The notes beneath the pieces are model-generated. The model searched no databases. It was not told where the DNA came from and saw only the letters and a list, made by a program, of their open reading frames with translations. DNA of 32,517 nt from a virus. A program made the translations under genes and the position numbers. Location: IMG/VR virus record IMGVR_UViG_3300042305_000639, positions 1-32,517 of that record; one strand, written 5' to 3'. Within the stretch, counting starts at the first letter, position 1. Each line of letters opens with the position of its first letter. Shown in pieces: positions 1 to 32,517 of this stretch.

Positions 1-2
1 AT

Positions 3-3000
3 ATGGCCTTATCTGAAGCTAGACTTGAGGGTGGATTTGCAAGAAATGATACATATGACCAATTGGTTAAAGATTATAGATCTAGAAACAATGGTAAGAT
101 GCCACCACAAGCATTGAGAGATGCTATGATGGCACAAGCAGAACAAGCTTCTAAAGATTCAATGCTTGCTAACACACTGCTTATTTATGCAAGTAATAAA
201 GTTTCCTTTGGTAATGTGCTTAATCCTAAATCTGGTTTGTCTAGAATGCTTTCAAAAAAAGTTGCTGAAGTTCAAAAGATGGCAGGTCAGTCAACTGTAA
301 GAGAGTTTACAAAGAAAACACTAAAGTCTGGTAAAGAATTACTTACTCCAAAGTTAACTACTGTAAAAGGTGCGTGGGCAACAGCTAAGAAACAAGGTGT
401 TCAAAAAACAGTTAAAGCTGCTATAGGTTATACTAAAGCTAACTTAATGGAAGGTGCTCAAGAAGTACTACAAGAAGTTATTGCTGACACATCTAGAAAC
501 TATCACTTACAAGCATTTTATTCTCAACCTGCTTCATCTTATTATTATACTAAAGCTCAGTTAGCTGAACTTAAAACTGATAAAACATTTGGTGAAATAT
601 TAGGTGAAGGTTTTAGTAAACAAGCTAGTGCTCAAGGTCTTGAGACATTTGCATCTGGTTTTGTGATGGGTGCTTTTGCTTATCCGTTAAATAGAGCTAT
701 TCCTTTTGCTCAAGAAAAATACATGCAAGTTTTTAAAAATGACATGTATAAAGCACATAAAGCTAAGATTGATGGGTATGTAGATAGAATGACTAAGTCA
801 GTTAATAATACCATGGCTAAGAATCCTCTTGATTTCCTTCAGTCAAAAGTATTTACTTTAGGTACACAAACTGAATTAGCTAATGTTATAGATACAGGAG
901 ATACTAAAGTAGAAAGAGATGCTAAAGAAGAAGCAGTTATTAAAAATGTAACAGACTTAATTAAAATGGACAGTCTTGAAATATGGACTGACTATATGGA
1001 ATCTTTAAAAGAATTGACTACTGAAGAGTATGCTGAAGCTGTTGGTATTACTGTTGAACAAGCTGAGGGTCATGTTGAAAAACTAGATAAGGTAATCAGT
1101 AGAGCCAAAGAAATAGAGAAAACATATAAAGAATACAATGAAAAATTCCCTAGTCCTATAGATCTTAATGACTATGAGGAAGGAACTAAAGAGTATGAGA
1201 AAGCTTCTGTATATCATGCAGCATGGGAGGAGGGTAAAAAGAATTTAATTTTCTATCATGAGAATTATAAGGATACTGTAACTAGGATGCAAAGTATTTA
1301 CCAAGCTATTGCTCAAGAAGAATTACTTGGTAAAATAGATCCCAATAGAGTTCAAGCTTTATTAAAAGATGATAGAATGCTGGGTGAAATACAGATTCTT
1401 GAAAGTGAAGTTGAAGGTTTAAAAGGAATGACAGATTCAGTATCTAAGAAAAAACTAAAAGAGACTGAAAACACATTGGGTATTTTAAAAGAATATCAGC
1501 AAGACTATGAAAACTTCATGTCTCATTTCTTTGAACAAGGTATGGTTGAACCGGGTACTGAAGAAGAAAAAGCTAAGAGGTTAGAGCTAGATGATAAAGT
1601 TATAAATAAACTAGAGTCTTCATTTAAAAAATACATGAAGTCATTAGCTAAACAAAGTGATGACATTATATTAAATGATAGTATTGATGAGGCTTTTGAA
1701 AAACTAGTGGATTACTATAAGCTTGGTAAAGAAGCAAACAAGTTATCTGATGCTATAAACATGATGAATGATCCAGAAGGTTTCATGGAGCATGTGGATA
1801 GAACATATGACTGGATGTATGAAATGTGGAACAACAGAGAAGACTATATCCGGGAAAACATTAATAAGCAACTTGAGACACTTAAGTTTAATCAGCTGCT
1901 TAATGATATGGCTGGTATTGGTATTTATGTTGACTTAGAGGCATTTGCAGAATTTAAAGAAACAGGAGTGATACCTACTGAATTTTTTGATGATGTAAAC
2001 AAAAGAGTAATAAAAAAAGGTAGTCCTATATATGAGCAAGTGGCTAATAGATTCATGGGCTTATCTGTTATGCAACAAATACTTGAAGCTAATAAACCTG
2101 CTAGTGAAAAACAAAAAGAAGAATTAGCAAGACTTGATGCAGAAGAGTTATCTGAAATAAATAAATTACCTAAAGTACCTACTAAAGTAGTTGTAAGAAA
2201 AATAGATAACAAAAAAAATTTTAGCATAAATGTTATCAATGATCAATTATCTAATGGTCAAAGTGTTGATGTTACTTATGAAGAAGATGGAGTACAAAAA
2301 ACAGCTGTGTTTTTTAAAGATCAGGATGGTATATTAAAATATGATAATGCAGAAGGGGAAGCTGTTGACTTAAAATTAGATATCAAGTTTAACAGTGGTG
2401 AAATATTTGAAATATTAAACAGACCAACTGATGAAGATGTAGCAGAAGTAAAAAAGAGATATGATGCTTTAAGAGCTGAGGCTGCAGAAAAAGCTATTGA
2501 AGAAGGTATTAAACCGTTCACAGCAGAACAAATAGCTGAGTTAGATGCAATCAATGCTGATACCCCAATAGAAGCAATGCCTCCAGAATTAAAACAACAG
2601 CTTGTTGATGCATATGATGAGTACAGAGCAAGACCAGAAAATAAAAGTATGTTTCCGGATAATCTTACTGAAGAAGATTTACAAAACAAGTTTGCAACAT
2701 TTATTAAATCTGAGTCAGAAGCATTAGAGATAATTGAGAAATATGTAAAAGATAAAAAGCTACAAGCAGCAACAACACCTGCTGGAGAAGTGGTTGTACC
2801 ATCTATTACTTTACCTAATGGAGAAGTAATATCTGCAGATGATGCTACTGATGCTATATTAGATACTACACTACAGAGATATAGATTTTTAATTGCTGAG
2901 TTGGGTGCAAAACCTGCAGATCAACTTACAGATGAAGAGAGAAAGAACTTGGCTATTTATAAAAGTAAAGCTAACATACTTTCTACATATATAGAGAACA

Positions 3001-5144
3001 AAAGAATTGGTGAGATGAGTCCTGAGCTCCAAGCAGCTAAAGCTAAAATAGATTTACTGCTTAAGGAACAGGAGAAGATTAAAGCAATGAAAACCGGCTA
3101 TGATGTAGAGGGTGATATTTTAAGAAGAGTAAGTAATGTTATTGAAAGCCTTAAAGGTGAGAAATATGCTTACAAGAAAATGGAAGATGTTAGAGTTGCA
3201 TTTAACATGACAATTGGTCAAGGTAAAGGTGTAGATGCTTTTATAAATCAATTAAGAGAGGCCAAGCTTCCTGGATTCAGTGAAAAAACATATGAAGCTC
3301 TTGCAGAAGAAATAAAAGAGTTAATGACTATAACTTCTGCAGATCAAGATGTACTTAAACTTCAACTTAATAGTTTAAGAGAAGATCTTAAAGTAGAAGA
3401 AGGTGAGTTTGGTAATCCTGAATTAGCTCAGAAAATAAGAAATCAGATAGCTGCAATTGAGAGCCAAATTCAAGAAGAAGTTCCTGTTGAAACTCCTGTA
3501 ACTTATGAAGAGTTAGTTGCTACTTCAAGAAACCAAATAGGTATTACAGGTCCTAACTTATCATTTATATTCTTTGGTAATTTACAAAATGCTATCAAGT
3601 CAGGTCAAATAAAATCTAAAGAAGAGCTGAATAAGATAATTGCTGACTGGAATGATGCTTCAGGGTACCAGGGATACCCTAATGAGATGAGTGATGCCCA
3701 GTCTAATATGTTGTTACAATTATCTGCCGGGCTTCCAGATGTCACACCTTCTGAGGTTAAAAAAGCTCAACAAACTCCAGATACACTTTTAGAAAGTGTA
3801 GAAAGAGCAGTAACAGAAAAAACATACAATGAAGAGACAGATGCAGGAACATACATAGATGACTTATCTAAAGAGTTTCTTGCAGGTAGAAAACCAAAAT
3901 TTGAAGCAGATAAAATTAGTGAGGAAGCTTATGAAAACCTGTTTGGTGAAAATGGTTTATTCCAGATTATGAAACAATGGATGGATACTAATAAATTAAT
4001 TATAGTATCCAGAGGTCTTGTTGTGTATGACAAGGATGCAAATGTTGCCGGGGAGATTGACTTCCTACTATCTGATGGTAAAAACTTTTACATAGTAGAT
4101 TTAAAAACAGGTAAGCAAGATAAGTGGGATAAGTATAATGATCCTAACAGTGAATATTATTCAAGCAAAGTATCTAATACATTGCAACAAGCATCTTATG
4201 TAAACTTGTTATACAATATGATTGGTGTTAAAGCTATTCCAAAAATATTACCAGTTGAAACTCAAATAGATAGAAATACAGGTAAGATATTAAAAGCTTC
4301 AAGACCAAGTTCACCTAATGCACTTAAAGCAGGTAAGATACTTATTGACCTACCTATTTCTCCAGAAATGCAGGCTCAAATAGACAGTGTCATACCATTA
4401 AAGTCTAAACCTACTATTAGTAGTGTACCTGTTTCTCCAAGTGTATCTAACATAGTAAATAAAGCTGAGGGAGAACAAGTAGAACCTACTGACTATGAAG
4501 AAGGTAGCGGTGTACCAACAGGAACTCCAACTGATACTTCTGCAAACGTTAAAGAGTATGAGGATAGAATAAACAAAGCTAAAGACACAGATCAGTTAGA
4601 CTTTATTGAACTTCAACTTGGTATAAACTCTCTTGACATGACAGCTGATGAGTTGTTCCAAGTGCAGCAAATGTTAGAACAAAAAAGGAGTAACTTACTT
4701 TCAGGGGGAAAAGCTGCAACGCAAGAAAAATCTTGGAGTATCGGAAACCAAGTTCACAGTGAAAGTACTATATTTGCAGACAAAGGTAAGAATAGAGGTG
4801 AAGTATTTTTAGAGCCATTTGAGACAGCAGTTATTAGCAGTATTGATATAGTTAAAGGTACAGTTACAATAAAACCATATGGTAAGAAAAATCAAAAGAC
4901 AATTTCTATTGATATGTTAAATAAAATGTTTAAATTAAATAGTGATCTATTTACTGAAGGTGAGGCACCAACAACTCAGCCGGCTGGTAAAGATCTTCAA
5001 AATCTATCTAAAGAGTCAACTGATGTTGTATCTACATTGCTTAATGATGTTACAGCACAGACAGCTTTAGAACAAGAAGTTGCAGATGAAAATATCACAG
5101 TAGATGAGACAGTTAATGATTTGTTAGATGATCTAGAATGTTAA
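3..5144 (+). CDS. Giant virion-associated protein with PD-(D/E)XK nuclease domain (probably 5' partial)
   Basis: A 1713-codon frame ending in TAA. The first ATG is at base 3, so the gene very probably continues left of the window. Residues about 140-230 are glycine/alanine-rich and helical, like ejection-type phage proteins, and the middle is long, charged and coiled-coil-like. A nuclease core lies near residues 1300-1400: GEID with D1353, then IVDLK with D1366 and K1368, then a Q-A-S-Y helix. This is the arrangement of Cas4/AddB-like PD-(D/E)XK nucleases. After a proline/threonine-rich linker there is a small beta-rich domain (about 1590-1660) and an acidic tail. The next giant gene begins 4 bases after the stop. 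In crAss-like phages such giant proteins accompany the virion RNA polymerase. The nuclease domain is well supported; the role as packaged cargo is inferred. Confidence 0.8.
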   Translation: MALSEARLEGGFARNDTYDQLVKDYRSRNNGKMPPQALRDAMMAQAEQASKDSMLANTLLIYASNKVSFGNVLNPKSGLSRMLSKKVAEVQKMAGQSTVREFTKKTLKSGKELLTPKLTTVKGAWATAKKQGVQKTVKAAIGYTKANLMEGAQEVLQEVIADTSRNYHLQAFYSQPASSYYYTKAQLAELKTDKTFGEILGEGFSKQASAQGLETFASGFVMGAFAYPLNRAIPFAQEKYMQVFKNDMYKAHKAKIDGYVDRMTKSVNNTMAKNPLDFLQSKVFTLGTQTELANVIDTGDTKVERDAKEEAVIKNVTDLIKMDSLEIWTDYMESLKELTTEEYAEAVGITVEQAEGHVEKLDKVISRAKEIEKTYKEYNEKFPSPIDLNDYEEGTKEYEKASVYHAAWEEGKKNLIFYHENYKDTVTRMQSIYQAIAQEELLGKIDPNRVQALLKDDRMLGEIQILESEVEGLKGMTDSVSKKKLKETENTLGILKEYQQDYENFMSHFFEQGMVEPGTEEEKAKRLELDDKVINKLESSFKKYMKSLAKQSDDIILNDSIDEAFEKLVDYYKLGKEANKLSDAINMMNDPEGFMEHVDRTYDWMYEMWNNREDYIRENINKQLETLKFNQLLNDMAGIGIYVDLEAFAEFKETGVIPTEFFDDVNKRVIKKGSPIYEQVANRFMGLSVMQQILEANKPASEKQKEELARLDAEELSEINKLPKVPTKVVVRKIDNKKNFSINVINDQLSNGQSVDVTYEEDGVQKTAVFFKDQDGILKYDNAEGEAVDLKLDIKFNSGEIFEILNRPTDEDVAEVKKRYDALRAEAAEKAIEEGIKPFTAEQIAELDAINADTPIEAMPPELKQQLVDAYDEYRARPENKSMFPDNLTEEDLQNKFATFIKSESEALEIIEKYVKDKKLQAATTPAGEVVVPSITLPNGEVISADDATDAILDTTLQRYRFLIAELGAKPADQLTDEERKNLAIYKSKANILSTYIENKRIGEMSPELQAAKAKIDLLLKEQEKIKAMKTGYDVEGDILRRVSNVIESLKGEKYAYKKMEDVRVAFNMTIGQGKGVDAFINQLREAKLPGFSEKTYEALAEEIKELMTITSADQDVLKLQLNSLREDLKVEEGEFGNPELAQKIRNQIAAIESQIQEEVPVETPVTYEELVATSRNQIGITGPNLSFIFFGNLQNAIKSGQIKSKEELNKIIADWNDASGYQGYPNEMSDAQSNMLLQLSAGLPDVTPSEVKKAQQTPDTLLESVERAVTEKTYNEETDAGTYIDDLSKEFLAGRKPKFEADKISEEAYENLFGENGLFQIMKQWMDTNKLIIVSRGLVVYDKDANVAGEIDFLLSDGKNFYIVDLKTGKQDKWDKYNDPNSEYYSSKVSNTLQQASYVNLLYNMIGVKAIPKILPVETQIDRNTGKILKASRPSSPNALKAGKILIDLPISPEMQAQIDSVIPLKSKPTISSVPVSPSVSNIVNKAEGEQVEPTDYEEGSGVPTGTPTDTSANVKEYEDRINKAKDTDQLDFIELQLGINSLDMTADELFQVQQMLEQKRSNLLSGGKAATQEKSWSIGNQVHSESTIFADKGKNRGEVFLEPFETAVISSIDIVKGTVTIKPYGKKNQKTISIDMLNKMFKLNSDLFTEGEAPTTQPAGKDLQNLSKESTDVVSTLLNDVTAQTALEQEVADENITVDETVNDLLDDLEC

Positions 5145-5148
5145 TGAT

Positions 5149-8100
5149 ATGAAAATTACTTGTGCCTTAAGCCAGAGTCAATCTGAAAAATTATATAAAA
5201 CCATATACAAATCTTTAACTGAAGCAATAAAAGCTGGAGAGACATTCAGTCCTGAGCAATATATGGCTGATCTTTTTGATAAGATTGCGGACAAAAAAGA
5301 TGAAGATACAGCAGTTAAGTTTCTTCAACAGGTTCCCTCTATTATAAGAACAATAGCAGCTAAACCTGCTTTTGACAACTTAGATATTAAGTTAGATCCA
5401 ATTAAAGAGTTGAGTCTTAAGTTTAAGAATGAGGTTGAAGGTTTTAATGAAGTACAAAAATACTTTAAACCACAAGTATCTGAGAGAGCAAAGTTGGCTT
5501 TGATTAAAGCTAAACAAAATGAGGCATTGCTTACTGAGCAAGTAGATCAAACATCTGAAATAAAAGATCCGGTAAGACTTAGACCTTTTAGTTCTACTGT
5601 ATCTACTATGCAGCAATTAATTCCAATTAATCCTGTTACAAATAAACCAATACTTGAAGAAAAAGTAGATCCTGCTAAACAGAGAATATTCTCTGCAATG
5701 GAAGCTATAAGAGCTGATGTAGAACTTTCTGATTCAACAGACCCTCTAGCTGGAATTACATATCAAGGTAGAACACTAAAGTTAAAACCAATACTGTTAA
5801 CAGAGTTAAGAAAAACTCATGAAGCTCAGTTAGATAAAACAACTCTTAATGAACTCATAAGAGCTGGTGCAATCAAAGCTCAAGAAACTAATAAAGAAGG
5901 TGTTGAAGGTTTAAAAAGAATTGCATTAGTGCTTACAGATGCAGACGGTAATTATCTTTACTTCAATCAAGAAGGTAAGATAGTTACTCAAGAAGAAGGC
6001 GGTGGCATTGTGTATCAGTTCATGAGAGATGTAAGAACTGGTAATGGTGTGTACAGATTAACTAATATGTATGGGACTGAAACTAGTGTTAAAACTCCTG
6101 CTGATATTGCTGCACAAATGGGTATCACAGAAGAAGAAGCTAGAAAGTTACAACAAGAAGAGTTTAAAGACCTGTATAAAGTTAAAGAAGCTACATTAAA
6201 AGGTGATGGACCTTTACTTGATTTAACTAGTTTAACTCCTGGTGTAAAAGAAAGTGTAGCCCAACCCTATGTTGACTTAAGAAACTTAAGAAAACTTCCA
6301 TTTGTAAACAATGCTACATTCAGAACTATTACTCCGGTAATGATTGGTGGTACTAGAGAAGCAGCTAAGATTACTTTAAATGGTAAAGAATACTCATTAG
6401 ATAGACCTAACTTACCTATTGAATTTGCTAATAATAAAAGACAAGCAAGTCCTTTAATTAGAAAGATTGCAGCTGCATTAGCTAATCCAAATATATCTAA
6501 TGCAGAGAAATATGATTTTGTTTCTCAGTTCTTATCAGATAAAGCATCTCCTTCTACTAGAAGACATGAGTTAAGTTATGATCCGGGTACCAATACTTTA
6601 ATTTTTAAGTATAATGAAAAAACATATAAGCAGGGTAGTGGAAAAGAGATACCACTTATAAATGAAGAACTTATTGGTAAAGAAAGCATTATTGAAGATG
6701 TTTTGCTAAATGCAGCTACTGATGATAAAGGTAACTACTATAGTGCTAAGATGACTTATAATGACAAAGCATTAAACAATAACCGTTACCGAGATTATGA
6801 TTTAGAAACAAACACAATCAATGATGAGTTTACTCCATACATACCTCTTCTTGAAACATTACCAAACACAAGAGTAAAGATATCTCAAGAAACAGATCCA
6901 GGATTCTTTAATTCACATATGGTATTTAGTATACCTACTGAATTTATTAAAGAGCTACAAGAGGACTTTAAAAATCCAGATCCTATTAATGTATCACAAC
7001 CTGTTCAACCTACTACTACAGATACTGAAACTGATATAGAAGCTCAGAAAGCTGAGATAGAAAAGAAGTGGAAAGATAAGCAGGCATGGTATATAAAAGA
7101 AGTTGGAGATTTTGATCAGTGGGAAAAAGAAAAAAATGCAGAACTAGCTGCATTAGAAGGTACTGCTACTCAAGCTCAACCTGTATCAACACAAGATCAA
7201 TCTATTAATAATGCAATTAGTCCTAATAATACTACAGATCCGGCTGATGACTTCAGTGATTTTATGTTTAGAAAGGGTGCAGATTTAAATGGAGTTACAG
7301 AAGAGCAAATAAAAAATGCTGAGCAATGGTGGAATGATTCTCCATTATCTAAATACATGGACTTTAAAACTATGGTAAACATAGTTAACTCTGATGTATA
7401 TGCTAGATTTATAGGTTATGCTTCTGTACTTAATGGTAAGTTTGGTAAAATAGAGATAGGTGAAAGAGGTACAATGGTAGATGTATACCATGAAGCATGG
7501 CATGCATTTACTCAGATATTCCTAACTAAAGAACAAAGAGAAAAGTTATATAAAGAAGTAGCTAAGCAACCGGGAGCATTTACATTACTAGATGGTACCA
7601 CAGTAGCATTTAAGGATGCTAACTATTTACAGTTAGAAGAATACTTAGCTGAAGATTTTAGATCTTATGGTATTGATCAATCAGCTAAAAAAGGTCAAAC
7701 AACAAGAAACACTCTGTTTAGAAAAATATTAAACTTTATCAAAAACTTGTTCTCTTCAAAGAGCACTAAAGATAAGTTGTTTAAAGAACTATACTTTGCA
7801 AAAAGTAATCCTAAGTTCTTAAAAAAATACTCACCAAATATTGATACCACATCTTTTAAACAACTCAACAGAGGTGTAGTAAGTTTAACAGACCCAACTA
7901 TTGATGCACTCAATAGACAGGATGCTAAACTGGTAAGTGAGAGTATTGACTCATATATATCTGAAATAATTGATGCAGCTGCAAAGTTTAAAGGTAATAA
8001 GAGTGGTAGCATATCTATGTTACTTGGTGATAACAATAAGAAAGCATTTTATACCAGAGTAAGAAAAGATTTTGAAACTAAACTTGCTAATGCTAGAACT

Positions 8101-11100
8101 AGTTATGCAGAGATTGAAAATGATCCTGATAAAGCTATGGAAGCTGCAAAGCTACTAAACAAGATAAGAATCTTTCAAGCTGCATTAGATAACTTTGGTG
8201 ATGCAAAAGGTGGTCTTGTAAAGTATCATTTAGAAAATACTACATTTAATTTACTAAGACAAAAATACATTGAAGTAGAAGAAGATAAAACTGATGTAGA
8301 AGAACAAACTGAAACAGAAGAATCAAGTGCTAAAGTAGAAGGAGTAGAGGAAAGTAAGTCTGGTGAACAGATAAAAGATAGTAAGGTTGGTAAGAAATCT
8401 TTGTTAGACTTAGCTAGTAAAGAAACAGTATACATTCTTAAGAGTCTTCACAAACTTGAAAATGGTAAAGCTGTTTACAATGAGTTAGGTTATAAAGAGC
8501 TTGCAAACTTTACTGAATCATGGAACAACTTAATGCGTGCTGTAAATGGAGAAAAAAATCCAGAGCAGATATATGATAATATAAAACAAGCAGCTGCTGA
8601 AGTTTATCCTGAGTTTAAACAGTTGATAAACAGCAAGCTTCCAAGTCCATCACAAGTAGTGCAAGCAGATAATATAAATGATAAAATATCTCAAAATAGA
8701 TTGCTTACTAACTTTTGGCAAGATGTTCAGAAAACAAGAGCTACATATTTACAAACTACTATATTTGAAAATGGTATAGCTGAAGTTACTAAAGCTTCAA
8801 TAGAAACAGCAAGTCTTGCAAATAAGTTTCAGGCTAAGTTTAAAGGAGACTTAACAAATGACTATGTAATAAGATCTCTTGAGAATAATATACCAATGCT
8901 TGACATGGATAAGATCATTGAAGATTTTGGTAAAGATGGTAATCTTATAATTGATAAATCATTTAATTTTGCAAGAGCAATTGGTTTGTATATAGATGAC
9001 TTAAGAGTTATAAAAAATGAACTTAAGAAAGATCAAAGAGCTATACAAGAATATGGTTTACCATATATATTTAAAACTATAGTTGAAATAAATAAAGCCA
9101 GTAAAAAACAAAACTTAACTTCGGAGGCTAGTGAAGCTATAACCAATTTCAGAATGAATCCATTACAAGGGTTGATGAAAGGTATTCCTGCATCAGTCTT
9201 AGGTAAAGAAGTATCTCAGAAAAATAAAATTGATAAGATACTTGGTCTTCAAGCTAAGTATGGTATTGACTCTTCAAACTTTGCAGTGCTTAATGCTGAA
9301 AGAAATCTTGTGTTTGAACATATAGAAGATCACTCTGTAAGTATGATCATATATGCTTTAAACAAAGCTTCTAATATGAAAGAGTTTTGGAATGCAGGTA
9401 GTGAGTTTGAATACTTAAGCTATCTTGATCCAAAGATAAACTCATTTACAAACAGATCACAAACTTTGAATTCCTTATTTGATATTGCATCAGATATGGA
9501 AAAAAGAGTTGGTAGATCCTTACAGATGTTTGTTAACTCTGGAACTCAGTTAGAAAATGGTGAAGGAACTAACACAACTTCATTAGATGTACATGGTAAG
9601 TTCTTGCAAGAACTACACAGTTTACTAAAAGGCGGTGTTCAAGAATTCATGAGACATGCTTCTAAGTCTTCTTCATTTGGTGCCAGAATAGAAGGTGGTA
9701 TTCCAGGTGGTGTGGGTAAAGGATCAGACACAAGACTTTGGGTAGATTTAGATAAGTTTGCAATTGGTACAGCTAACAACTATGTTACTAAAACTCATAT
9801 GATTCCTTATATAGCTGCAGAGTTAGAAAGGATAAACAAGTTTAAAACTAACAAAGATCTGTTTAAAAAGTATGCCGGCTATAATAGAAAGATGCCTGAT
9901 GGTACCATGGCTGGTGAAAACTTTACAGCTTTTGATAATGTTCTTACTGAAGATACTAAGAATGAGATACTTGAAAAGGTAACTGATCCAAACATGAGAT
10001 TAGAGGATTATCTTAAGACAGATCCTGTTCTTGCAAAAAAGATTGCAACTGATGTAGATAATTATTTTGAACAACAGACACTAGACCTTTTAGATTTTTA
10101 CAGTGAAGCAGAATACTTAAGCCCTGACTTACTTGAAAGATTAAAAGTATTCAATCTATCTGAAGAAGAAGCTACTAAAGTATTAATGAAAGCATATGCA
10201 GTAAATGCTTGGGTTCATAACTTTGAAATGGGTAGCTTATTCTATGGAGACTTGGTTCAATATAACCATGAAAAAGAAGAGTTACATAAAAGAAATACTG
10301 GGTCAACATCCGGTGGTTTAAAATTCAGAACAGATAAAGCTATACAATCTTTATTAACTGAATTAAATCAAAAAGTATCTTATGCTGCTACAATCCCTGG
10401 TATGGATACATTAGCATATAATGGTAAATTCAATACAGCAATTCTCCAAGATATAAAAAGAGACTCTAAATACATCAAGCCTATTGAGGAAGCTTTAAGA
10501 AAAGACTATGCAGAAAGATTTGCAAAAAGTAAACTATCTGAAGCAGAAATAAAAGCTGAGATTGACAGAAGAGTTGCTATTGAAATTGAGAAGTATAAAG
10601 GAATGGAAGAGGGTGATGGTCAAGGTTGGATTACTTTTGATGCATATAGAGCACTTAAAATGGCATCTGGTCAATGGAGTGATGTTCAGGAAGAGTTATT
10701 TAAAAAAGTAATTAATAATGAGCCTATAAATGCAGCGGATGTTGTAGAAATGTTTCCTGTATACAAAGTTCAAAACTATGGACATTTAGCAAATACAGAT
10801 TTACCAGTAATGGCAATGCATAAGTTTGCATTAGCTCCACTTATTCCATCTATGATTAAAGGTTCTGACTTAGAGAATCTTCACAATCAAATGATGACAA
10901 AGAATATACAGTATGTAACATTCCAAACTGGTTCTAAAGTTGGTAGTGTAACATCTGAAGTTAACAAAAAAGGTGAGGCTGCTGCAGATAAAATATATTC
11001 TGATGATGAGCAAATGAGCCTAATGAGTGACATCAAGTTTACACCAAATACTATATATCTGGAGTATCTTAAAGATGTTACTCAAGTTCCAGTATCATTT

Positions 11101-23154: not shown

Positions 23155-23838
23155 ATGTTAGTTTATATTGCAACAAATAAAATAAATGGTAAAAAGTATA
23201 TTGGATATACTACCGGAACACTGCATGAAAGAATAAAAAATCATGTTAGAAAAGCTAATGATAAAAATCAAAAAGCTTATAATTATTTTTTTCAAAGAGC
23301 ACTTAGAAAATATTCTATTAATAATTTTATTTGGGAAGTATTGTGTGTTTGTATTGATAAACAAGAGTGTTGCCAAAAAGAAAAAGAATTTATTAAAAAA
23401 TATAATTCAGTAGCACCTGATGGTTATAATTTAACAGAAGGTGGTGATGGTGGTTTACAATGTGCAATTACAAAAATAAAAATATCAAATACTGTAAAAA
23501 GGTTGCATAAAGAGTATCCTGATAAATTTGATAGAATGCGGACTATGACAAAGGAAAGTAGATCTAATCAAGCAAAAAAAGCATGGCAAACAAAAAAGCT
23601 TAAAGGGTATAAAAGCATTTCAGGATTCAAATTAAGTGATGAGGCAAAACAAAAAATAAGCATTACTAAAAATAATAAAAATAAATGTGGTTGGATAAAT
23701 GTTAACACAAATGAAATACTATATAAATCTTTAACTGATATGTCTATATTTACTGGATTAAGTATAGGTGTATTTAATCATCTTAAACAAGGCCGGCAAC
23801 AAAAAACTAAATGTGGTTGGATGTTATATAAATCTTAG
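23155..23838 (+). CDS. Free-standing GIY-YIG homing endonuclease
   Basis: A 227-aa protein with an N-terminal GIY-YIG nuclease domain: V3-Y4-I5, K14-Y15-I16-G17, R26, H30, E78 as the likely metal-binding glutamate, and the closing GYNLTEGG. The C-terminal half carries DNA-binding modules typical of these enzymes: a NUMOD3-like SDEAKQKIS at 161-169 and a NUMOD1/IENR1-like segment over about 178-223. Such enzymes cut a specific site in related genomes lacking the gene, and repair copies the gene across. It sits alone between the two converging gene blocks, and I see no interrupted host gene or intron. The stop is TAG (23836-23838), which argues against TAG recoding. Confidence 0.92.
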   Translation: MLVYIATNKINGKKYIGYTTGTLHERIKNHVRKANDKNQKAYNYFFQRALRKYSINNFIWEVLCVCIDKQECCQKEKEFIKKYNSVAPDGYNLTEGGDGGLQCAITKIKISNTVKRLHKEYPDKFDRMRTMTKESRSNQAKKAWQTKKLKGYKSISGFKLSDEAKQKISITKNNKNKCGWINVNTNEILYKSLTDMSIFTGLSIGVFNHLKQGRQQKTKCGWMLYKS

Positions 23839-24452: not shown

Positions 24453-24624
24453 CCTCATCTTCACAACAATCACAGACTTCATCTGTGTCTAACACACCAT
24501 ACTCATTATCATACCAGTCTCTGGCATCTTTTTTATTTGGCTCATCTATATCTCCACTTGCCATAGCTTCAGCCCCGGCCATATAAGCTTCAATCATTTT
24601 CTTTCTAAATGTCACTGGATGCAT
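24439..24624 (-). CDS. Small acidic hypothetical protein with cysteine cluster (61 aa)
   Basis: The protein starts MHPVTFRKKMIEAYMAGAEAM, an amphipathic helix, passes through DARDWYDNEYG and ends in a very acidic tail containing CDCC and EDEDGD. I do not recognise a family. Short proteins of this kind, with an AYMAG helix and a W-Y-D-N motif, are common among small phage accessory genes. The ATG overlaps the end of the MazG-like gene by 20 bases, and its own end overlaps the zinc-ribbon gene by 14 bases, so it is embedded in a tightly packed operon. Confidence 0.55.
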   Translation of the reverse strand: MHPVTFRKKMIEAYMAGAEAMASGDIDEPNKKDARDWYDNEYGVLDTDEVCDCCEDEDGDS

Positions 24625-25012
24625 GTGTGTCAGGTTTAATAAACTTACTTAATTCTGGTCTGAAATATCCTTTACCCTTGAGTATCTTACCATCTTCTCT
24701 CAACACTGGTTTACCATCTTCACCTAGTTTACTCATGTTACTAGCATGTATCTCATTAAATACATCCTCTATAATATGCTGCATACCATGTTTAAGAATA
24801 GTCCCGCATAAAATATACAGCTGATCACCAAGAGCATCTGCAATTTCTACCAGAGATTTGTTGTAACATGCTTCAAGGTACTCATCATTTTCTTCTTTCA
24901 TAAGACTGTGTCTTAGATCATACTCTGCATTAGGTACCAACTGTGGCCATCTGCCATCTTTCTGTCCAAAAGCTTTGTGGAACTCTGCCACTGCATCTAA
25001 ATTTTGTTTCAT
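24605..25012 (-). CDS. MazG-like NTP pyrophosphohydrolase (135 aa)
   Basis: An all-alpha NTP pyrophosphohydrolase of the MazG/HisE (phosphoribosyl-ATP pyrophosphohydrolase-like) superfamily, which hydrolyses nucleoside triphosphates to monophosphates and pyrophosphate. The metal-binding pattern is visible: E40-E41-x-x-E44, then E56-x-x-D59 and D63 (VEIADALGDQLY). The C-terminal HASNMSKLGEDGKPVL and GKGYFRPEL stretch is typical of phage members. I use ATG 25012 (MKQNLDAVAEFH); an upstream GTG at 25039 lies inside the terminator hairpin and is unlikely. The stop is TAG. It probably shapes the dNTP pool or (p)ppGpp-type signals during phage replication; the exact substrate is unknown. Confidence 0.9.
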   Translation of the reverse strand: MKQNLDAVAEFHKAFGQKDGRWPQLVPNAEYDLRHSLMKEENDEYLEACYNKSLVEIADALGDQLYILCGTILKHGMQHIIEDVFNEIHASNMSKLGEDGKPVLREDGKILKGKGYFRPELSKFIKPDTHASSDI

Positions 25013-25023
25013 AGTGTAAAGAT

Positions 25024-25055
25024 AAAAAAAAGGGGACACATTTCTGCATCCCCTT
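25024..25055 (-). terminator. Intrinsic terminator between the DUF932-like and MazG-like genes
   Basis: Stem AAGGGGA (25030-25036) pairs with TCCCCTT (25049-25055) around a 12-base loop. On the - strand it is followed by a T-run (25029 to 25024). The hairpin base is only 17 bases from the MazG-like ATG, leaving no room for a promoter downstream of it. It may therefore be a leaky terminator or attenuator rather than a full stop. A second short hairpin, CCTGTT/AACAGG (25067-25072 with 25084-25089), lies just upstream, next to the preceding stop codon. Confidence 0.75.
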
Positions 25056-26326: not shown

Positions 26327-26327
26327 A

Positions 26328-28241
26328 TTAAAATAAACTTAGCTGATTTATATTAGGCTCTAAACCTTCTATTTCTTTTCTTATATTCTCCAGATAGTAC
26401 TTGTAATTAATCTCATAGTCATCAAAGTCCATATCATCTATGTGGTTGATATAAATCTGTTGCAGCCACTTGCCGGCTTCAATGTTTATCTCCCTACCAT
26501 CAGACTTATTTATCTTGATAATCTTAGACCCTGTATTACAGATATAATATCTTAAGGTATGCTGAAGTTCTTTCTCCGTGTACACACCATTCTTAATAAA
26601 TTTCTCTACATACTTCCAATCTCCCTTGATCTTTTTACCACCACAGTAATCAAAAATATTTCTGTTACTCTTTAGATAATCCTCAAGCTTGATACCCTCT
26701 ACAAAATAAGCATGCAAAGCTTTAGGTATTACAAGAAAACTCTTGTTCTTATGCAGTGCTAGGTCAGCAAACTCAAATCTACCTTTACATTTAGACTTAC
26801 CGTCTTCAGTAACAGCAATATAGTTGTTTACATCACCCAGTACTAGTTTACTATACTTATCATGTTCTAGTTGTAGGTTGGTTATCTTTTCCCATATCTT
26901 ACAGATCTCCATGTACTTGTCCACATATTCTCTAGGAATCATAGTCTCCAGACCATCTGTATTCTGCATCAACGGTATTGCTCCGGGGATACCTTCACAA
27001 ATCATCTCATATAACATACTAAGACTTAACTGACCATTGATAGTAATCTTCATTGTGAATTCAGGATCATACAGGAAACTGTTCTCATCATTACTAAGAC
27101 CATAAGTTGAATTCAAGATAATCTTGTATACATAGTTCTTTGGGTCCTTCTTTGGAATAGTTTTCCTTTCATCAAAGAACCATTCATACTGACTACAAAA
27201 CTCCTCTTGTGGTAAATGTGCCGGAGCCCATTTATTTCTAATAGCAAGATTAGGATAGAATGAAGTAACATCTGAAGTCATGATAACCATATCATCTGTG
27301 GCATTATATACCCTAGATTGTCTAGCACCATGAATACCACCCAGACCATAGTCTGTCTTTACTCCCTTATATTGTACAGAATACTTAAACCCACCTTTAG
27401 TATTTCCGGTATAGATAACTACATCCTGAAACTTTTTAAGTAGGTGTTGAAAGGTAGCTGTCTCAAAACTTATATAAGGTAGTATGATATCTTTTACAAC
27501 TATCTGTTCCCTCTGAGTTCTCATTTGCCGGAGCTCAGCTTTCCGGATACCAGTTTGCTTACTCAAGAAATGTAAAAACAGTTCTTTAGATATCCTTGGC
27601 TCAGATGCAGAGAATAAATCTATGTTATATTCTTCTGTCAGTGCTCTCCTTAACTCAATCTGTCCTTTACTTAACTGCATGATCTGTTTAGTAGACCGGA
27701 CATCATTTATACAATACTTTACAATAGAAAGTATTTGACTCTCTGTAACTTCAGCATAGTGTGGAATAGGCATATCCTTGATATTCTTCCAATCCATTGT
27801 ATACTGGATCCACTTAAGGCTAGACCTTTTAGCTGGATTGTCCCAGTGATTTAGTTTAAATACATCTACTTGTCTTATCTGCAAATCTCTAGAACCAAAC
27901 TCAGCAAACTCTCCTGCATTACTTCTCTGGATCACAGCTTGTGCTTTAGCATAGACAAACCTAGCAATAGTTTCACCATCTTGTTCAAGCAGCTGCTCTT
28001 TGTTCCGGAGAATATGTTCAGTAATTTGACTGTCAAATGCAAGACCATTAAAGCTAACATGCCATTCTTCAAGAGTTATATTTCTCTCAAGGAATGTTAC
28101 TAGTTCTAGTATATCATTTTGTGATTTGTGACAGATAAATACTTCTCTGTGTTCAGACTTTACATCTTCAAAGCAGGCTATGAAACAATTGGCTAAAGTT
28201 TCAAAATCCATGACCCAATGGGTTCTATTTACATTACTCAT
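26328..28241 (-). CDS. Family B DNA polymerase with 3'-5' exonuclease and beta-clamp-binding C-terminus
   Basis: A 637-aa replicative DNA polymerase. Exonuclease motifs: Exo I D12-F-E14, Exo II FNGLAFD (N65, D70), Exo III Y176-x3-D180. Polymerase motifs: A, D324-VTSFYP; B, K373-IILNSTYG; C, N427-T-D429-G. Motif C replaces the usual DTDS with NTDG but keeps the second, catalytic aspartate. A KCKGRF segment (484-489) fits the downstream KxK region. The last five residues are QLSLF (633-637), a perfect bacterial beta-clamp-binding pentapeptide. There is no obvious terminal-protein-priming insertion that I can recognise. The gene begins 39 bases after a terminator and runs directly into the DUF932-like gene. 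Confidence 0.95.
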   Translation of the reverse strand: MSNVNRTHWVMDFETLANCFIACFEDVKSEHREVFICHKSQNDILELVTFLERNITLEEWHVSFNGLAFDSQITEHILRNKEQLLEQDGETIARFVYAKAQAVIQRSNAGEFAEFGSRDLQIRQVDVFKLNHWDNPAKRSSLKWIQYTMDWKNIKDMPIPHYAEVTESQILSIVKYCINDVRSTKQIMQLSKGQIELRRALTEEYNIDLFSASEPRISKELFLHFLSKQTGIRKAELRQMRTQREQIVVKDIILPYISFETATFQHLLKKFQDVVIYTGNTKGGFKYSVQYKGVKTDYGLGGIHGARQSRVYNATDDMVIMTSDVTSFYPNLAIRNKWAPAHLPQEEFCSQYEWFFDERKTIPKKDPKNYVYKIILNSTYGLSNDENSFLYDPEFTMKITINGQLSLSMLYEMICEGIPGAIPLMQNTDGLETMIPREYVDKYMEICKIWEKITNLQLEHDKYSKLVLGDVNNYIAVTEDGKSKCKGRFEFADLALHKNKSFLVIPKALHAYFVEGIKLEDYLKSNRNIFDYCGGKKIKGDWKYVEKFIKNGVYTEKELQHTLRYYICNTGSKIIKINKSDGREINIEAGKWLQQIYINHIDDMDFDDYEINYKYYLENIRKEIEGLEPNINQLSLF

Positions 28242-28280
28242 ATCTCAGTTCAGTTAAGCTGTTCCCCCGTTTAATTAAAT

Positions 28281-28316
28281 AAAAAAAGAGGGTGCTGTTT
28301 GGTACTCACCCTCTTT
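28281..28316 (-). terminator. Strong intrinsic terminator after the 117-aa gene
   Basis: A perfect 10-bp stem, AAAGAGGGTG (28285-28294) with CACCCTCTTT (28307-28316), encloses a 12-base loop. On the - strand the stem runs into seven consecutive T (28287 to 28281). It lies 18 bases after the stop of the 117-aa gene and separates it from the DNA polymerase operon. The 39 bases between it and the polymerase ATG show no promoter I can recognise. Confidence 0.9.
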
Positions 28317-28334
28317 CTGGTTTTTTGGAATTGT

Positions 28335-28688: not shown

Positions 28689-28707
28689 TTTTTGTTGGTT
28701 TAATTTT

Positions 28708-29277
28708 TTACAAATTTACTGTTTTTTCTATATTTTCCAAGTCTGCAACTTCCAATACTAGATTTTCTTTGTCCAAGTTGGGTTTATCACATAGCTCACC
28801 TACTTCTTTTAGTAGTTCAACATTCACACCTAGCAAATTTGCATATGTTTGAAAGTGTTTTTCAGGAAAGAGATAGCTGGCTACATAAATATAGTTACCA
28901 GACTTTGGGTCAAAGAAGTTTAATATCTTACGCTTTATATCATAATTTAACTTGCTGTATCTTCCATAGACTATATGGAACCAGTTGTATTCTAAATCAG
29001 AAAAATCAAATGTAAATATGCTTTTATCACCGGCAGATACATAGTCACAAAGTCTAGAGTGTTTAAGTAAAACATTCTTTTCAAAGTTAACATACTCAGC
29101 ATCTGTTCTTGTGTGATATACACATATTAGCTTCATATCCTCAGGAGTGACAGTGTTATTCCAACCTAGATAGGTTTCTTCTGGAATCACACTTGTGCCC
29201 CTTTTAATGTCCAAGAGCGGATATAAAAATATCTTGGACTTCTGAAAGTACTTCTTATAAAGCGCATTAATAACCAT
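28708..29277 (-). CDS. Hypothetical protein (189 aa)
   Basis: I do not recognise a characterised family. The N-terminus reads KIFLYPLLDIKRG, followed by PEETYLGW and a segment rich in aromatic residues (FDFSDLEYNWFHIVYGRYS). A KSGNYIYVASYLFPEKHF stretch precedes a helical, acidic C-terminus. The pattern suggests a compact alpha/beta domain; no catalytic motif stands out. It starts 5 bases after the exonuclease stop, so it belongs to the same transcript, and its 3' end overlaps the candidate promoter of the 117-aa gene. From its setting it may be a replication or recombination accessory protein, but this is inference. Confidence 0.75.
   Translation of the reverse strand: MVINALYKKYFQKSKIFLYPLLDIKRGTSVIPEETYLGWNNTVTPEDMKLICVYHTRTDAEYVNFEKNVLLKHSRLCDYVSAGDKSIFTFDFSDLEYNWFHIVYGRYSKLNYDIKRKILNFFDPKSGNYIYVASYLFPEKHFQTYANLLGVNVELLKEVGELCDKPNLDKENLVLEVADLENIEKTVNL
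28711..28740 (-). promoter_or_regulatory. Candidate Bacteroides-type promoter for the 117-aa gene
   Basis: On the - strand, TAAATTTG (28718 to 28711) fits the Bacteroides -7 consensus TAnnTTTG exactly. TTGG (28740 to 28737) lies 18 bases upstream, as a near match to the -33 TTTG. The predicted transcription start falls within about 20 bases of the ATG at 28688. The site lies inside the last codons of the upstream gene. The adjacent strong terminator supports a monocistronic unit. This was read by eye. Confidence 0.4.
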
Positions 29278-29282
29278 AAGTT

Positions 29283-30269
29283 CTACAATTTAATATTACC
29301 AACTGCAAGATCAAATGGTAAGTCATATCTCTTCTGTGTATAATGCCACTGGGCTATTTGTATAACAGATTTGAAATCACCCTTCCACTTGGTCATTGTT
29401 TCTGTAGAGACTTGGAAAGGATAAACTAAATTGTATTTGTCAATTACAATAAAGGTTACTTGAACTTGCCAATCTCTAGCATCTGGTCTGTCTTTCAAGA
29501 ACTTATCTGAAGCTAGAATAGTATAGATAACAGCTTGTATCCAATACTTGTAGTACTCAACAGCTTCCGGGAAATCCTGAATTGACTTGCCAGTAGTTTT
29601 GAGGTCATTGATGAATATCACCTTTGCCTCAGTATCAACTACAACATTGTCAAGAATTCCGTGAAAACCAAAAGGTAATTTGTCATGGTCAACCTTAATA
29701 TGCAACTCATTATAGGTCTCAATGTGTGTGTCTTCCTCACTGATATCTAGTGCTAATAGTGTTCTCACATCACTATTACTCTTTAGTATCTCTACCTGTG
29801 CTTTGCAGCCATCCAAAGTAGGTTGATCTACTATTGATTTGTCTAGACTATTCTTAAGGAATTCAAAATACTCTTTGTGTTCATCAGTGAGAATCTTGTC
29901 AAGTCTTTGCTGATCTGTTTTAAGATTCTGATAAAGATTTGCTGTAAGTAGCTGTGTGAGTATATCTGTTGAGTAGTCTTCCAAAAGTAATGAATTATTT
30001 GCAACTGACAAGTGAATTCTAAAAATATTGTCAATAATTTTCTTAGGGTTATCACTTGGTAGTTTACCCGGCATACTAAGAAATTTATCATCATAGGTCT
30101 CAGGTTCAAACAGTAAACAGTGCAGGACACTCCCTCCTATGAGGTGAGCATCCTTACTGTCTTCTCTCTGGTTGAGCACATAATGATTGTAAAAAGCAGC
30201 GGGAGAATAAAGTAATTTATTCAACCCACTGTAGCTAAAATAAAATTTCTTCTGATAGAATCTTTCCAT
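29283..30269 (-). CDS. PD-(D/E)XK exonuclease, RecE/Cas4-like (328 aa)
   Basis: The N-terminus reads FSYSGLNKLLYSPAAFYNHY, the start pattern of phage-type RecE/Cas4-like exonucleases. Catalytic elements with numbering from the chosen ATG: GGSVLH with H50 followed by E55 (FEPE), GILD with D207, INDLK with D222 and K224, and the helical Q245-x3-Y249 motif (WIQAVIYT). Such enzymes degrade DNA ends to produce single strands for recombination or replication. I chose ATG 30269 (MERFYQKKF), 4 bases after the upstream stop; in-frame ATGs at 30296 and 30293 would overlap the upstream gene by about 20 bases. Its stop is TAG. The family is clear; partner and polarity are unknown. Confidence 0.88.
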   Translation of the reverse strand: MERFYQKKFYFSYSGLNKLLYSPAAFYNHYVLNQREDSKDAHLIGGSVLHCLLFEPETYDDKFLSMPGKLPSDNPKKIIDNIFRIHLSVANNSLLLEDYSTDILTQLLTANLYQNLKTDQQRLDKILTDEHKEYFEFLKNSLDKSIVDQPTLDGCKAQVEILKSNSDVRTLLALDISEEDTHIETYNELHIKVDHDKLPFGFHGILDNVVVDTEAKVIFINDLKTTGKSIQDFPEAVEYYKYWIQAVIYTILASDKFLKDRPDARDWQVQVTFIVIDKYNLVYPFQVSTETMTKWKGDFKSVIQIAQWHYTQKRYDLPFDLAVGNIKL

Positions 30270-30273
30270 TTCA

Positions 30274-31632
30274 TCAGAACCATTCAAAGTCATCATCTTT
30301 AGTTTGTGGTATTTGATTATTATTGGTCTCTTCTATTGGCCCTTTATTTGTCTCTATTTTAGGCTCCGGAATTTCCTCTTCTAATGCTATTAACTCTGAC
30401 TTAAGTTCATTTCTAACAATATTAGTAAATGCATCTTCTATGTCTTCATCAGCTAGTTCTTCCTCCTGTGCAGGCTCATTGCACACATCAGCAACGCCAG
30501 CCACCCCTGGAGACAAAGTGTTAAGATCTACAAGGTCTCCATGCAATTCAGATATCTCTATACCATCCTCTGGAACAAAATCTGGGAGCTCTTCATAAAC
30601 ATAGTTAGTATTTAGCAACTGCAGAGTTTCTTCATTGACAGTTATACTTTTTACTTTAAAAAATGTACTGTCTCCTCTTCTACCAAGTTCATCAGAATAA
30701 TGCTCCATAAGAACATCTATTTTATCTGTATCAAGGACATCTTTGTTAATAAGAGACTGCATTATATTATCCACACTGGTATCCATGTTGCTTTTACTTT
30801 TACCTAGAAAACTAAGTAAAGACTTGAAATTCACATGGTTCTTAGTATGACAGTTGTACATTTTGCCAGCATGATCCTTGAATAACATCTCAAGATACAA
30901 TAAGCTATCTATATAATTACAATTAGCCATAATCTCCATTGCAAGTACATGATTGTCTCCATCTGAGCTCTTAAACATATCAGAAATCTGATTAAACATA
31001 GTTGCATCTATAGTAGCAGCATCTTCACCATTAATGTGTTTAATCAATTTACTCTCATCATAAATATCCAGGGTTAAGATATCTGGAAACAAATCTGTGT
31101 GATCACTGTCTACTGAATAATATACACTAGAGTGTCTAGAAATACTATTATAAGTGTATCTTTTTACAGCTGCTAATTCTGAATTTCTTAACTGACCAGC
31201 TGCAGAATAATCTATAATAACTACATCTTCAGTATAAAACTCTAAAGCTTGTGTAAGATTTTCTTTATAATAATCATCTATTACAAGTTCAGGGTCTAGA
31301 AGAATAGCTCTAACAGCTGAAGTTTGTATAGAATAATACCAAGCTCCACTTGTAATCTTATCTTTAGTATTCTTACCAGCAAAGATATGTGTAGCATCAT
31401 TTATATTTCTGACAGTTTTAATACCATGTTGCAAAGACAAGTCTTTTAGTTTTACTCTAGGTATATTAACCCCCGGTAGAAAATAAAGCTTATCTCCTTT
31501 TGACGGGGTGTAATCCTTATCAGTTGCAGTTACTATGTTTGTACTACTATCTGCACAATATAAAGGTTCTACCTTTATGATTAGCTCATTATGCATGGCA
31601 TCTACTTCATAAATATGTAAGTATGTTTTCAT
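30274..31632 (-). CDS. Hypothetical replication-module protein with acidic, SSB-like tail (452 aa)
   Basis: I do not recognise a family. The N-terminal 130 residues look alpha/beta (KLYFLPGVNIPRVKLKDLS, DATHIFAGKNTKD). The central part is mostly helical, with LAMEIMANCNYIDSLLYLEM and a histidine/cysteine pair in MYNCHTKNHVNF. From about residue 350 onward the protein is very acidic and probably disordered, ending KDDDFEWF. That acidic, aromatic-terminated tip resembles the protein-interaction tails of single-strand DNA-binding proteins. It lies between the MoxR-type ATPase and the exonuclease; the exonuclease start sits just past its TGA stop. A hairpin lies 18 bases before its ATG. A role as a DNA-binding or adaptor protein is only a guess. 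Confidence 0.75.
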   Translation of the reverse strand: MKTYLHIYEVDAMHNELIIKVEPLYCADSSTNIVTATDKDYTPSKGDKLYFLPGVNIPRVKLKDLSLQHGIKTVRNINDATHIFAGKNTKDKITSGAWYYSIQTSAVRAILLDPELVIDDYYKENLTQALEFYTEDVVIIDYSAAGQLRNSELAAVKRYTYNSISRHSSVYYSVDSDHTDLFPDILTLDIYDESKLIKHINGEDAATIDATMFNQISDMFKSSDGDNHVLAMEIMANCNYIDSLLYLEMLFKDHAGKMYNCHTKNHVNFKSLLSFLGKSKSNMDTSVDNIMQSLINKDVLDTDKIDVLMEHYSDELGRRGDSTFFKVKSITVNEETLQLLNTNYVYEELPDFVPEDGIEISELHGDLVDLNTLSPGVAGVADVCNEPAQEEELADEDIEDAFTNIVRNELKSELIALEEEIPEPKIETNKGPIEETNNNQIPQTKDDDFEWF

Positions 31633-31649
31633 TCTTTTAAGTTTAATAA

Positions 31650-31667
31650 GGGGAGTTTTATCTCCCC
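31650..31667 (-). terminator. G-rich hairpin just upstream of the 452-aa gene
   Basis: GGGGAG (31650-31655) pairs with CTCCCC (31662-31667) around a 6-base loop. On the - strand it is followed by TTATTAAACTT rather than a clean T-run, so termination is likely weak. It sits only 17 bases before the ATG and could instead influence translation or RNA stability. Confidence 0.45.
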
Positions 31668-31692
31668 CTATGTTTGTTTTAATTAAATTCTA

Positions 31693-31713
31693 AGTTCCTT
31701 TTGGTGGGGAACT
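31693..31713 (-). other. Short inverted repeat downstream of the MoxR-type gene
   Basis: AGTTCC (31693-31698) pairs with GGAACT (31708-31713) around a 9-base loop, 14 bases after the ATPase stop on the - strand. The following TTAGAATTTAATT is T-rich but broken. It may form a tandem weak terminator with the G-rich hairpin 25 bases further on. Confidence 0.3.
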
Positions 31714-31727
31714 GCTTGATGTTTGCT

Positions 31728-32516
31728 TTACTTGACAGCCATCTTCACCACGTCCTGATTCATCATGAGCTGACTGAACCGGACTTTGTTACCATTAACA
31801 ATCTCTTTGACCATATAATATCTTAGGTCATCAGTGAATGCTTCACAGTCAGTAGTAAGTTTAGCTATCCTGTCAATGATTGGTTTACCTACTGAACCTT
31901 TGTCAGCTAAAGTAAGAGAATAGTTAATCACCCTTGTTGCAATAACACTAGAGATATCTGCCCGGAAGTCATTATCTTTCCCTACTGCATTAGTAAGAGA
32001 GTTCATAACATACTGCTCATCTTTAGTCAGGATGTCTACTGGAGAAATAATCCTATCTAGCTTATTATTAATGAACATAGTAAACATTGAACTAAAGTCT
32101 ACACCAACAGAACCTTCACCAATCATTTGGATTAGAGGCAGGTCTGCTTCAAACTTCTCAATAGAACTAATTGCATTGAAGAAAGTAGTAATAGCTCTTG
32201 GATTAACTCTTTGAGTTACCAATTCTGGGTGCATCAACATAAAGTTAATACATCTACCATCTATGTTTGCTTTCTCTGCCCACTTAGCCCATACATCAGA
32301 ATCATACTTTAACTCAACTGAGATAAATCTAGTCTTCTGAGCAACATCTAGACTGGTTACATTATAATCACCATTGTCTGGATTAGTAGTCAAGATTACA
32401 TGCCAGTTCTTTGGTAGCTTCCAAGATACATATTCTTGTCTGTCTAATATCTCCATTGTTGCTTGCATAAACCTTGCATCAGCTCTGGTGTAATCATCAA
32501 GAATCAAGAAACCACC
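31728..32516 (-). CDS. MoxR-type AAA+ ATPase (partial, cut by the right edge)
   Basis: 262 codons are visible and the frame is open to the window edge. The visible part begins GGFLILDDYTRAD, a Walker B strand with neighbouring aspartates. Sensor 1 follows (VILTTNPDNGDYNVT), then an arginine-finger region (DVAQKTRFISVEL) and a helical lid domain with VNPRAITTFFNAI. This is the MoxR/dynein-related branch of AAA+ ATPases, which remodel protein complexes. The TTG at 32507 is internal and not a start; Walker A lies outside the window. MoxR proteins usually work with a partner bearing a von Willebrand A domain, and I see none here. It is the most upstream visible gene of the replication block. Confidence 0.85.
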   Translation of the reverse strand, partial: GGFLILDDYTRADARFMQATMEILDRQEYVSWKLPKNWHVILTTNPDNGDYNVTSLDVAQKTRFISVELKYDSDVWAKWAEKANIDGRCINFMLMHPELVTQRVNPRAITTFFNAISSIEKFEADLPLIQMIGEGSVGVDFSSMFTMFINNKLDRIISPVDILTKDEQYVMNSLTNAVGKDNDFRADISSVIATRVINYSLTLADKGSVGKPIIDRIAKLTTDCEAFTDDLRYYMVKEIVNGNKVRFSQLMMNQDVVKMAVK

Positions 32517-32517
32517 T

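Follow-up and report, generated by a model that had tools for sequence, protein, structure and literature searches.

CpG dinucleotides can be scarce for different reasons. The vertebrate type of depletion, by deamination of 5-methylcytosine, is driven by fast loss, and the CpG-centred word YCGR is the site of McrA-type methyl-directed restriction. Among double-stranded DNA (dsDNA) phages, the non-temperate ones are described as avoiding, for the most part, the recognition sites of orthodox type II enzymes (Rusinov et al. 2018, PMC6286503), and passages of the same paper list YCGR as a site. Neither CCGG nor crAss is mentioned in the main text of a preprint about phage CpG (PMC12132194), and the titles and abstract beginnings of the literature searched do not describe the pattern reported here. 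We analysed the 32,517-nucleotide stretch of the IMG/VR virus record IMGVR_UViG_3300042305_000639 (hereafter, the window), which over its whole length (1..32517) avoids CpG except where the C is preceded by another C (CCG on one strand, CGG on the other). The pattern is real, is shared by a whole clade of relatives and acts at the DNA level, and it blocks the establishment of new CpGs rather than destroying old ones.

The window contained 96 CG dinucleotides, compared with 860 predicted by base composition (observed-to-expected ratio, rho, of 0.11), and 49 of these 96 lay in CCGG, a context whose share according to base composition would be 2.6% (binomial P of about 1e-50). CCGG reached 2.1 times its independent expectation while the remaining CpG contexts, pooled, reached 0.06. 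Both coding blocks behaved in the same way, with 29 of 61 CGs in CCGG at positions 1-23850 and 20 of 35 at positions 23851-32517. An earlier, sequence-only reading, which had counted 29 of 60 and 20 of 35 by eye, was therefore almost exact in its counts and right about both the strong depletion with CCGG spared and its presence on either side of the change of coding strand. To separate the pattern from coding constraints, synonymous codons were shuffled within the 13 genes called in the window (open reading frame, ORF, calls rather than curated genes, here and in the junction table below), keeping every protein and the codon usage. The shuffles gave 331 +- 12 CGs against the 94 observed in these genes, so that avoidance of CGN codons is insufficient, as had been claimed, and an explanation of the depletion by codons or proteins was ruled out. 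They also gave 18.8 +- 3.4 CCGGs against 48 observed, with an excess in each of the three codon phases; this codon-preserving shuffle, which the sequence-only reading had proposed as a check, left its claim standing. As the shuffle fixes the number of CGs within codons, the deficit was located at codon junctions, where 33 CGs were found instead of 270, T-CG occurred once instead of 68 times and CG-A was absent instead of occurring 120 times. This null preserves codons and not the codon pairs named in that reading's refuting condition; a pair-keeping null would itself retain the junction CpGs.

The window's PolB gene, encoding a family B DNA polymerase (26328..28241, minus strand; phrog_1252, E 1e-139), was used as the query for gathering relatives, and 80 of 247 matched loci were kept. 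They include near-duplicates (over 6.1 kb, L002 and the window are 100% identical), and 14 of the 81 loci were accordingly dropped from pooled counts, leaving 67, some of them still 94-98% alike. Rho ranged from 0.08 to 0.25 in every one of the 80 relative loci and from 0.08 to 0.24 across the 67 non-duplicate ones, and in six relative records that were fetched (112-123 kb) the pattern extended throughout. The depletion is therefore clade-wide, in agreement with the expectation that relatives should share it.

We then described the frequency of each CpG context as the product of two half-site weights, each set by the base 5' of the C on one strand. In the window, the weights were 0.14 for A, 1.43 for C, 0.29 for G and 0.02 for T. 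Of the 67 non-duplicate loci, 62 were well described by this four-weight model (deviance below 12.6 with 6 degrees of freedom); the C weight ranged from 0.67 to 1.65 (median 1.08) and was the highest in 66 of the 67, the exception being L045, with 36 CpGs in 8 kb. A codon-controlled table of the junctions in 1,091 called genes gave much the same order of half-sites, with 18 TCGAs against 1,653 expected at one end and 408 CCGGs against 232 at the other, and left room for an additional CCGG-specific term of only 1.2-1.3-fold. In the clade, CGN arginine codons likewise followed codons ending in C (T-C|CG, 292 against 38 expected; A-C|CG, 213 against 51), and at the more distant positions (-4 to -2 and +3 to +5, counted from the C of the CpG) base use shifted by no more than about 1.7-fold, far below the effect of the adjacent flanks. 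These results show that the unit is the trinucleotide NCG, read per strand, with TCG the most avoided, followed by ACG and GCG, and CCG free. They also show that the depletion acts at the DNA level, since codon usage is insufficient and the effect is roughly strand-symmetric.

Because a CCG on either strand spares a CpG proportionally and the CCGG term is small, the exempt unit is CCG (or CGG) and not CCGG, which is common because it is the sole CpG tetramer in which both strands read CCG. A second-order Markov model agreed, predicting 46.8 CCGGs for the window, so that the exceptional words are CCG and CGG; together with the small interaction term, this ruled out CCGG as a special tetramer. 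The idea that CCGG is a protected unit was thus not supported, and its protection by a methylase, conceivable on the host's side, would leave the proportional, partial sparing of CCGT, CCGC and their complements unexplained. The proposal of a protein-binding site fared no better: CCGGs were gained at a nearly neutral rate (see below) and lay 9 to 3,312 bases apart, irregular distances that ruled out a regular spacing, and CCGG-N6-CCGG did not occur in the window. The order of the flanks was not constant within the clade. Five neighbours in the PolB tree (L012, L013, L022, L024 and L026) avoided GCG the most and were relaxed for A- and T-flanked CpG, and L023, L052, L057, L069 and L080 leaned likewise toward GCG avoidance.

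To determine how CpGs come and go, 25 trios of relatives were aligned and 22 were used (three were left out because of branch reuse or excessive divergence), and synonymous changes were polarised by parsimony, T and C being exchanged at third codon positions. Rates of T-to-C and C-to-T change were counted in 156 genes, excluding those with fewer than 60 aligned codons, below the identity thresholds or nearly identical, while the bootstrap and the A-to-G counts kept identical genes (168 genes). T-to-C changes that created a CpG were seen at 55 of 11526 sites, compared with 523 of 20538 before A, C or T. By product, the gains were 3 of 3298 for TCG (control, 160 of 5826), 26 of 4530 for ACG, 11 of 1584 for GCG and 15 of 2114 for CCG, and those creating CCGG were not suppressed (7 of 286). 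The base on the far side of the new CpG altered the gain about 10-fold (NNT|GG, 31 of 1978; NNT|GA, 8 of 5512). The A-to-G path gave a similar picture, with 29 of 4586 for CpG-creating changes against 88 of 3864, a single TCA-to-TCG change in 726 and unsuppressed CCGG creation (11 of 370). Loss, in contrast to gain, was close to normal: 32 of 272 CpGs changed C to T against 397 of 6578 in the control, and 18 of 228 were lost by the reverse of the A-to-G path against 58 of 982.

In the bootstrap, the gain ratio was 0.08 (0.05-0.11) for CpGs without CCG on either strand, 0.35 (0.23-0.50) for those with one CCG and 0.96 (0.32-1.67) for CCGG, and the corresponding loss ratios were 0.73 (0.16-1.39), 2.80 (1.90-3.83) and 2.05 (0.76-3.52). 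Among pairs at least 95% identical, the gain ratio without CCG was still 0.04 (0.00-0.12; 2 of 3246), so the scarcity of new CpGs does not come from their being rapidly lost again; for CCGG it was 0.50 (0.00-1.74), resting on 1 of 146 and too few to judge. As the 22 trios share some tips, some changes were counted twice. A repeat with 18 trios whose ingroup tips all differed (136 genes) agreed: gain without CCG was 16 of 6502 against 437 of 17158 (T-to-C) and 5 of 1888 against 71 of 3120 (A-to-G), gain of CCGG was 6 of 246 and 9 of 294, loss without CCG was 4 of 82 against 332 of 5544 and 3 of 32 against 45 of 786, and loss was 21 of 112 and 6 of 48 with one CCG and 6 of 40 and 6 of 94 for CCGG. 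Overall, CpG loss was raised about 1-2-fold, synonymous gain was reduced 4-5-fold and TCG gain 16-30-fold. These data show that established CpGs are not lost fast and that new CpGs rarely become established.

Several explanations were weighed against these observations. Deamination of methylated CpG, with CCGG spared by repair resembling very short patch (VSP) repair or by a CCGG methylase, appears very improbable. TG and CA were modestly over expectation in the window (rho 1.16), as deamination would produce, but it predicts a normal gain and a loss that scales with the depletion, to well above 10-fold, whereas we found about 1-2-fold loss and a gain reduced 4-30-fold that stayed low in the most similar pairs. 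The sequence-only reading had named protection of CCGG by a methylase and VSP-like repair as possible causes and looked to a CCGG methylase or Vsr-like gene. None of the 20 relatives' records scanned for the C5 methylase family PF00145, several being incomplete, contained it, and Vsr (PF03852) and the N4/N6 methylase family PF01555 were each found in 0 of 12, some of them fragments, the host not being searched. A PADLOC scan of 69 proteins of the relative G001 returned, as a separate observation, one protein (alignment A1) resembling PbeA models (up to 1.5e-29); weaker apparent matches included a type IV restriction model (5.6e-06). It is unlikely, too, that changing host restriction systems, none of them for CCGG, make the clade avoid a set of classical type II palindromes simultaneously (TCGA, ACGT, GCGC, CGCG and others). 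The drift of flank weights between sub-clades would suit this, but non-palindromic CpG contexts without CCG on either strand were also depleted. The non-palindromes ACGA, GCGA and TCGG obey the product rule as well (in 62 of 67 loci), and this rule describes poorly the phage P-SSM2 (deviance 82), whose 50 kb contain neither CCGG nor GCGC.

Mimicry of a CpG-poor host such as a member of the Campylobacteraceae, or a mutation pressure common to both, is quite unlikely. It draws on the single bacterial genome hit, a Campylobacteraceae metagenome-assembled genome (MAG) with a PolB match at 53% and two contigs matching the major capsid protein (MCP), whose sampled contigs had a rho of 0.27. Nevertheless, its flank order differs from that of the clade, with ACGT lowest (0.11), GCGA and CCGC highest (0.44) and CCGG only 0.26. 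This MAG was the only one of 101 Campylobacterota genomes searched with an MCP match, none being found in the 100 others. Three of its contigs (L118, L206 and L207) belong to the phage clade or close to it, and their presence in the MAG is probably a binning error favoured by a low G+C and a scarcity of CpG common to both. Matches of the window at E 0.01 in 90 of 104 genomes were read as AT-rich noise, except for these contigs, and with 20,000 of the 32,517 window bases as query, no CRISPR-like repeats were seen at nine short-match loci in genomes of the MAG's family. More credence, although limited, is due to a bias in mutational input, by which replication or repair in the phage would rarely make the T-to-C or A-to-G errors that create DCG (D = A, G or T), leaving CpG scarce without selection. 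An input-limited model does predict what was seen, a strongly reduced gain and no rise in C-to-T loss in the most avoided class (4 of 94 against 397 of 6776). Against it, gain that depends on one flank predicts additive half-site frequencies, and the product model outperformed both this additive model and per-strand decay models in all four groups of loci. Moreover, the base past the neighbouring G changes the gain about 10-fold, so the polymerase or repair step would need to recognise, from both strands, the tetramer that results.

Selection is favoured over scarce mutation because the far-side base shifts gain about tenfold and flank effects multiply. Our tentative preference, possible rather than probable, is for selection through a putative host DNA-targeting enzyme reading 5'-(T/A/G)CG per strand, which comes near the earlier suggestion that restriction by the host acts against CpG outside CCGG. 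Such an enzyme, met during infection, would read 5'-(T/A/G)CG-3' on one strand at a time and damage or mark the phage DNA there, CCG would lie outside its specificity, and new TCG, ACG and GCG sites would be selected against. An enzyme acting on the NCG of one strand at a time would fit a cost that accumulates strand by strand. It would more likely be encoded by the host than by the phage, in a defence based on restriction, type IV systems or guidance by methylation, because no C5 or N4/N6 methylase and no Vsr was found in the phage records searched and because the flank order is altered in some sub-clades; the changed position of GCG suits shifting host enzymes better than a fixed phage property.

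Several points weigh against this selective reading. A selection equilibrium expects a several-fold rise in loss of the most avoided CpGs, yet their C-to-T ratio of 0.73 shows none. No other finding argues as strongly against a simple equilibrium, and a scarcity of mutations toward DCG would also account for it. The other path offsets it in part (11 of 110 non-CCGG CpGs lost against 58 of 982), as does the C-to-T loss ratio of 2.80 for CpGs with one CCG, and our guess is that surviving DCGs may stand at constrained sites. CCGG was itself lost at a ratio of 2.05 on the C-to-T path (6 of 50). Strand symmetry is approximate, as a strand-symmetric model of the pooled coding-strand table had a deviance of 134 compared with 30 for an asymmetric one. 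Neither the enzyme nor the host was found in the phage records and bacterial genomes searched, and we know of no enzyme with DCG specificity. We regard as doubtful the more specific proposal that hosts, or the phage in the course of breaking down host DNA, employ an enzyme for asymmetric 5'-DCG-3', strand by strand, with CCG exempt; to our knowledge, this would be unlike any restriction enzyme. If true, it would be a short, non-palindromic CpG specificity that has brought phage genomes exceeding 100 kb close to a complete lack of DCG.

Altogether, the interpretation given by the sequence-only reading was partly supported. What looked like a vague composition bias becomes a quantitative rule with four half-site weights per genome, which predicts the substrate preference of the putative enzyme. 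The substitution data show that a phage can be strongly deficient in CpG without methylation decay being the cause, and the half-site weights could serve as a fingerprint for finding the host of a widespread crAss-like clade known from metagenomes.

Judged by protein families in its relatives, the phage is crAss-like. In G001 and G007, crAss-type major capsid and ring proteins (PF23898, PF25702, PF24228) were matched, as well as a uracil-DNA glycosylase, from scans of 69 of 105 and 68 of 112 called ORFs, respectively, and portal and terminase families were also matched among the relatives. The family list for G007 covered 25 of 27 families and the one with the portal and terminase families 25 of 26. 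An HNH nuclease was also seen in G001. The window fragment itself had no crAss capsid or ring protein among the families scanned. The G001 TerL matched 124 phage records, the 30 best at 23-27% identity, and of four such records opened, three were classified as Crassvirales and one was not. A relative's MCP was 28% identical over 99% of its length to that of Leptolyngbya phage Lbo-JY46. Seven plasmids carried PolB matches at 24-30% identity and none an MCP match, in a search for phage-plasmids. G007 (L087-L093) also had matches to spore photoproduct lyase, the C-terminus of arginyl-tRNA-protein transferase and the C-terminal domain of RNA polymerase alpha. G011 carried a lone tRNA-Arg(TCT) gene (L106:6630-6704, minus strand), the only tRNA assigned to an amino acid in the six fetched records; arginine in the clade is mostly AGA.

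Three giant ORFs of 1713, 3142 and 2695 amino acids adjoin on the plus strand of the window (3-22661) and have almost no recognisable domains. A giant virion RNA polymerase is a trait of crAss-like phages; the Pfam hits of these ORFs included no RNA polymerase family. The first (3..5144; 14 CGs, 7 in CCGG) had only weak nuclease matches (PD-(D/E)XK or exonuclease), the second (5149..14577; 29 CGs, 13 in CCGG) had no Pfam family and the third (14574..22661; 15 CGs, 7 in CCGG) a LysM domain near its C end. They are followed on the same strand by a GIY-YIG homing endonuclease (23155..23838; 3 CGs, 2 in CCGG, rho 0.28). Besides PolB, the minus strand encodes a MazG-like or PRA-PH nucleotide pyrophosphohydrolase (24605..25039), a PD-(D/E)XK nuclease resembling exonuclease VIII (29283..30296) and an ATPase (31728..32507, phrog_1297). 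Across codon junctions of the 67 loci, AGGA was also scarce (2011 against 4071 expected), perhaps through avoidance of internal sites resembling ribosome-binding sites.

Compared with other phages, CpG depletion as such is not special, and the CCG exemption is, within a small, hand-picked comparison of 41 fitted sets (the window, 39 phage sets and the MAG). Rho was 0.03 in Bacteroides phage crAss001 (L121, 1-50000), a stronger depletion than in the window, 0.10 in Flavobacterium phage FPSV-D24 (L240), 0.15 in Fusobacterium phage Fnu1, 0.32 in P-SSM2 and 0.97 in T4, whose cytosines are modified. Among relatives of crAss001, the 25 of 63 loci computed spanned 0.02 to 0.59 (17 were fitted), and 7 of 8 loci of the Lbo-JY46 clade were fitted. 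The ratio C/max of the weights exceeded 1.5 in only one of the 40 non-window sets (L140, 2.41 on 49 CpGs), compared with 66 of the 67 clade loci. The phages crAss001 and FPSV-D24, related to the clade by TerL or portal, resemble it in a similar or stronger CpG depletion but differ in the exemption: C/max was 1.46 and 0.83 and the C weight 0.32 in each, whereas the median C/max of the clade was 2.31. FPSV-D24, recorded as Fipvunavirus and not Crassvirales, has depletion without exemption, CCGG standing at 0.00 of expectation in 50 kb.

With vertebrate-type deamination the clade shares a CpG deficit across coding phases, but its loss is near normal and its gain is low. The McrA site is alike in being CpG-centred with pyrimidine and purine flanks, and the clade's worst context, TCGA, is a YCGR; however, CCGG is a YCGR too and should be avoided, and it is the one context that the clade does not avoid, standing at 2.1 times expectation in the window. 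Restriction-site avoidance as described in PMC6286503 is alike as a selection-driven shortage of short words in dsDNA phages and concerns, for the most part, orthodox type II sites, whereas the clade follows a graded trinucleotide rule, read per strand, that covers CpG in general except where it is read as CCG.

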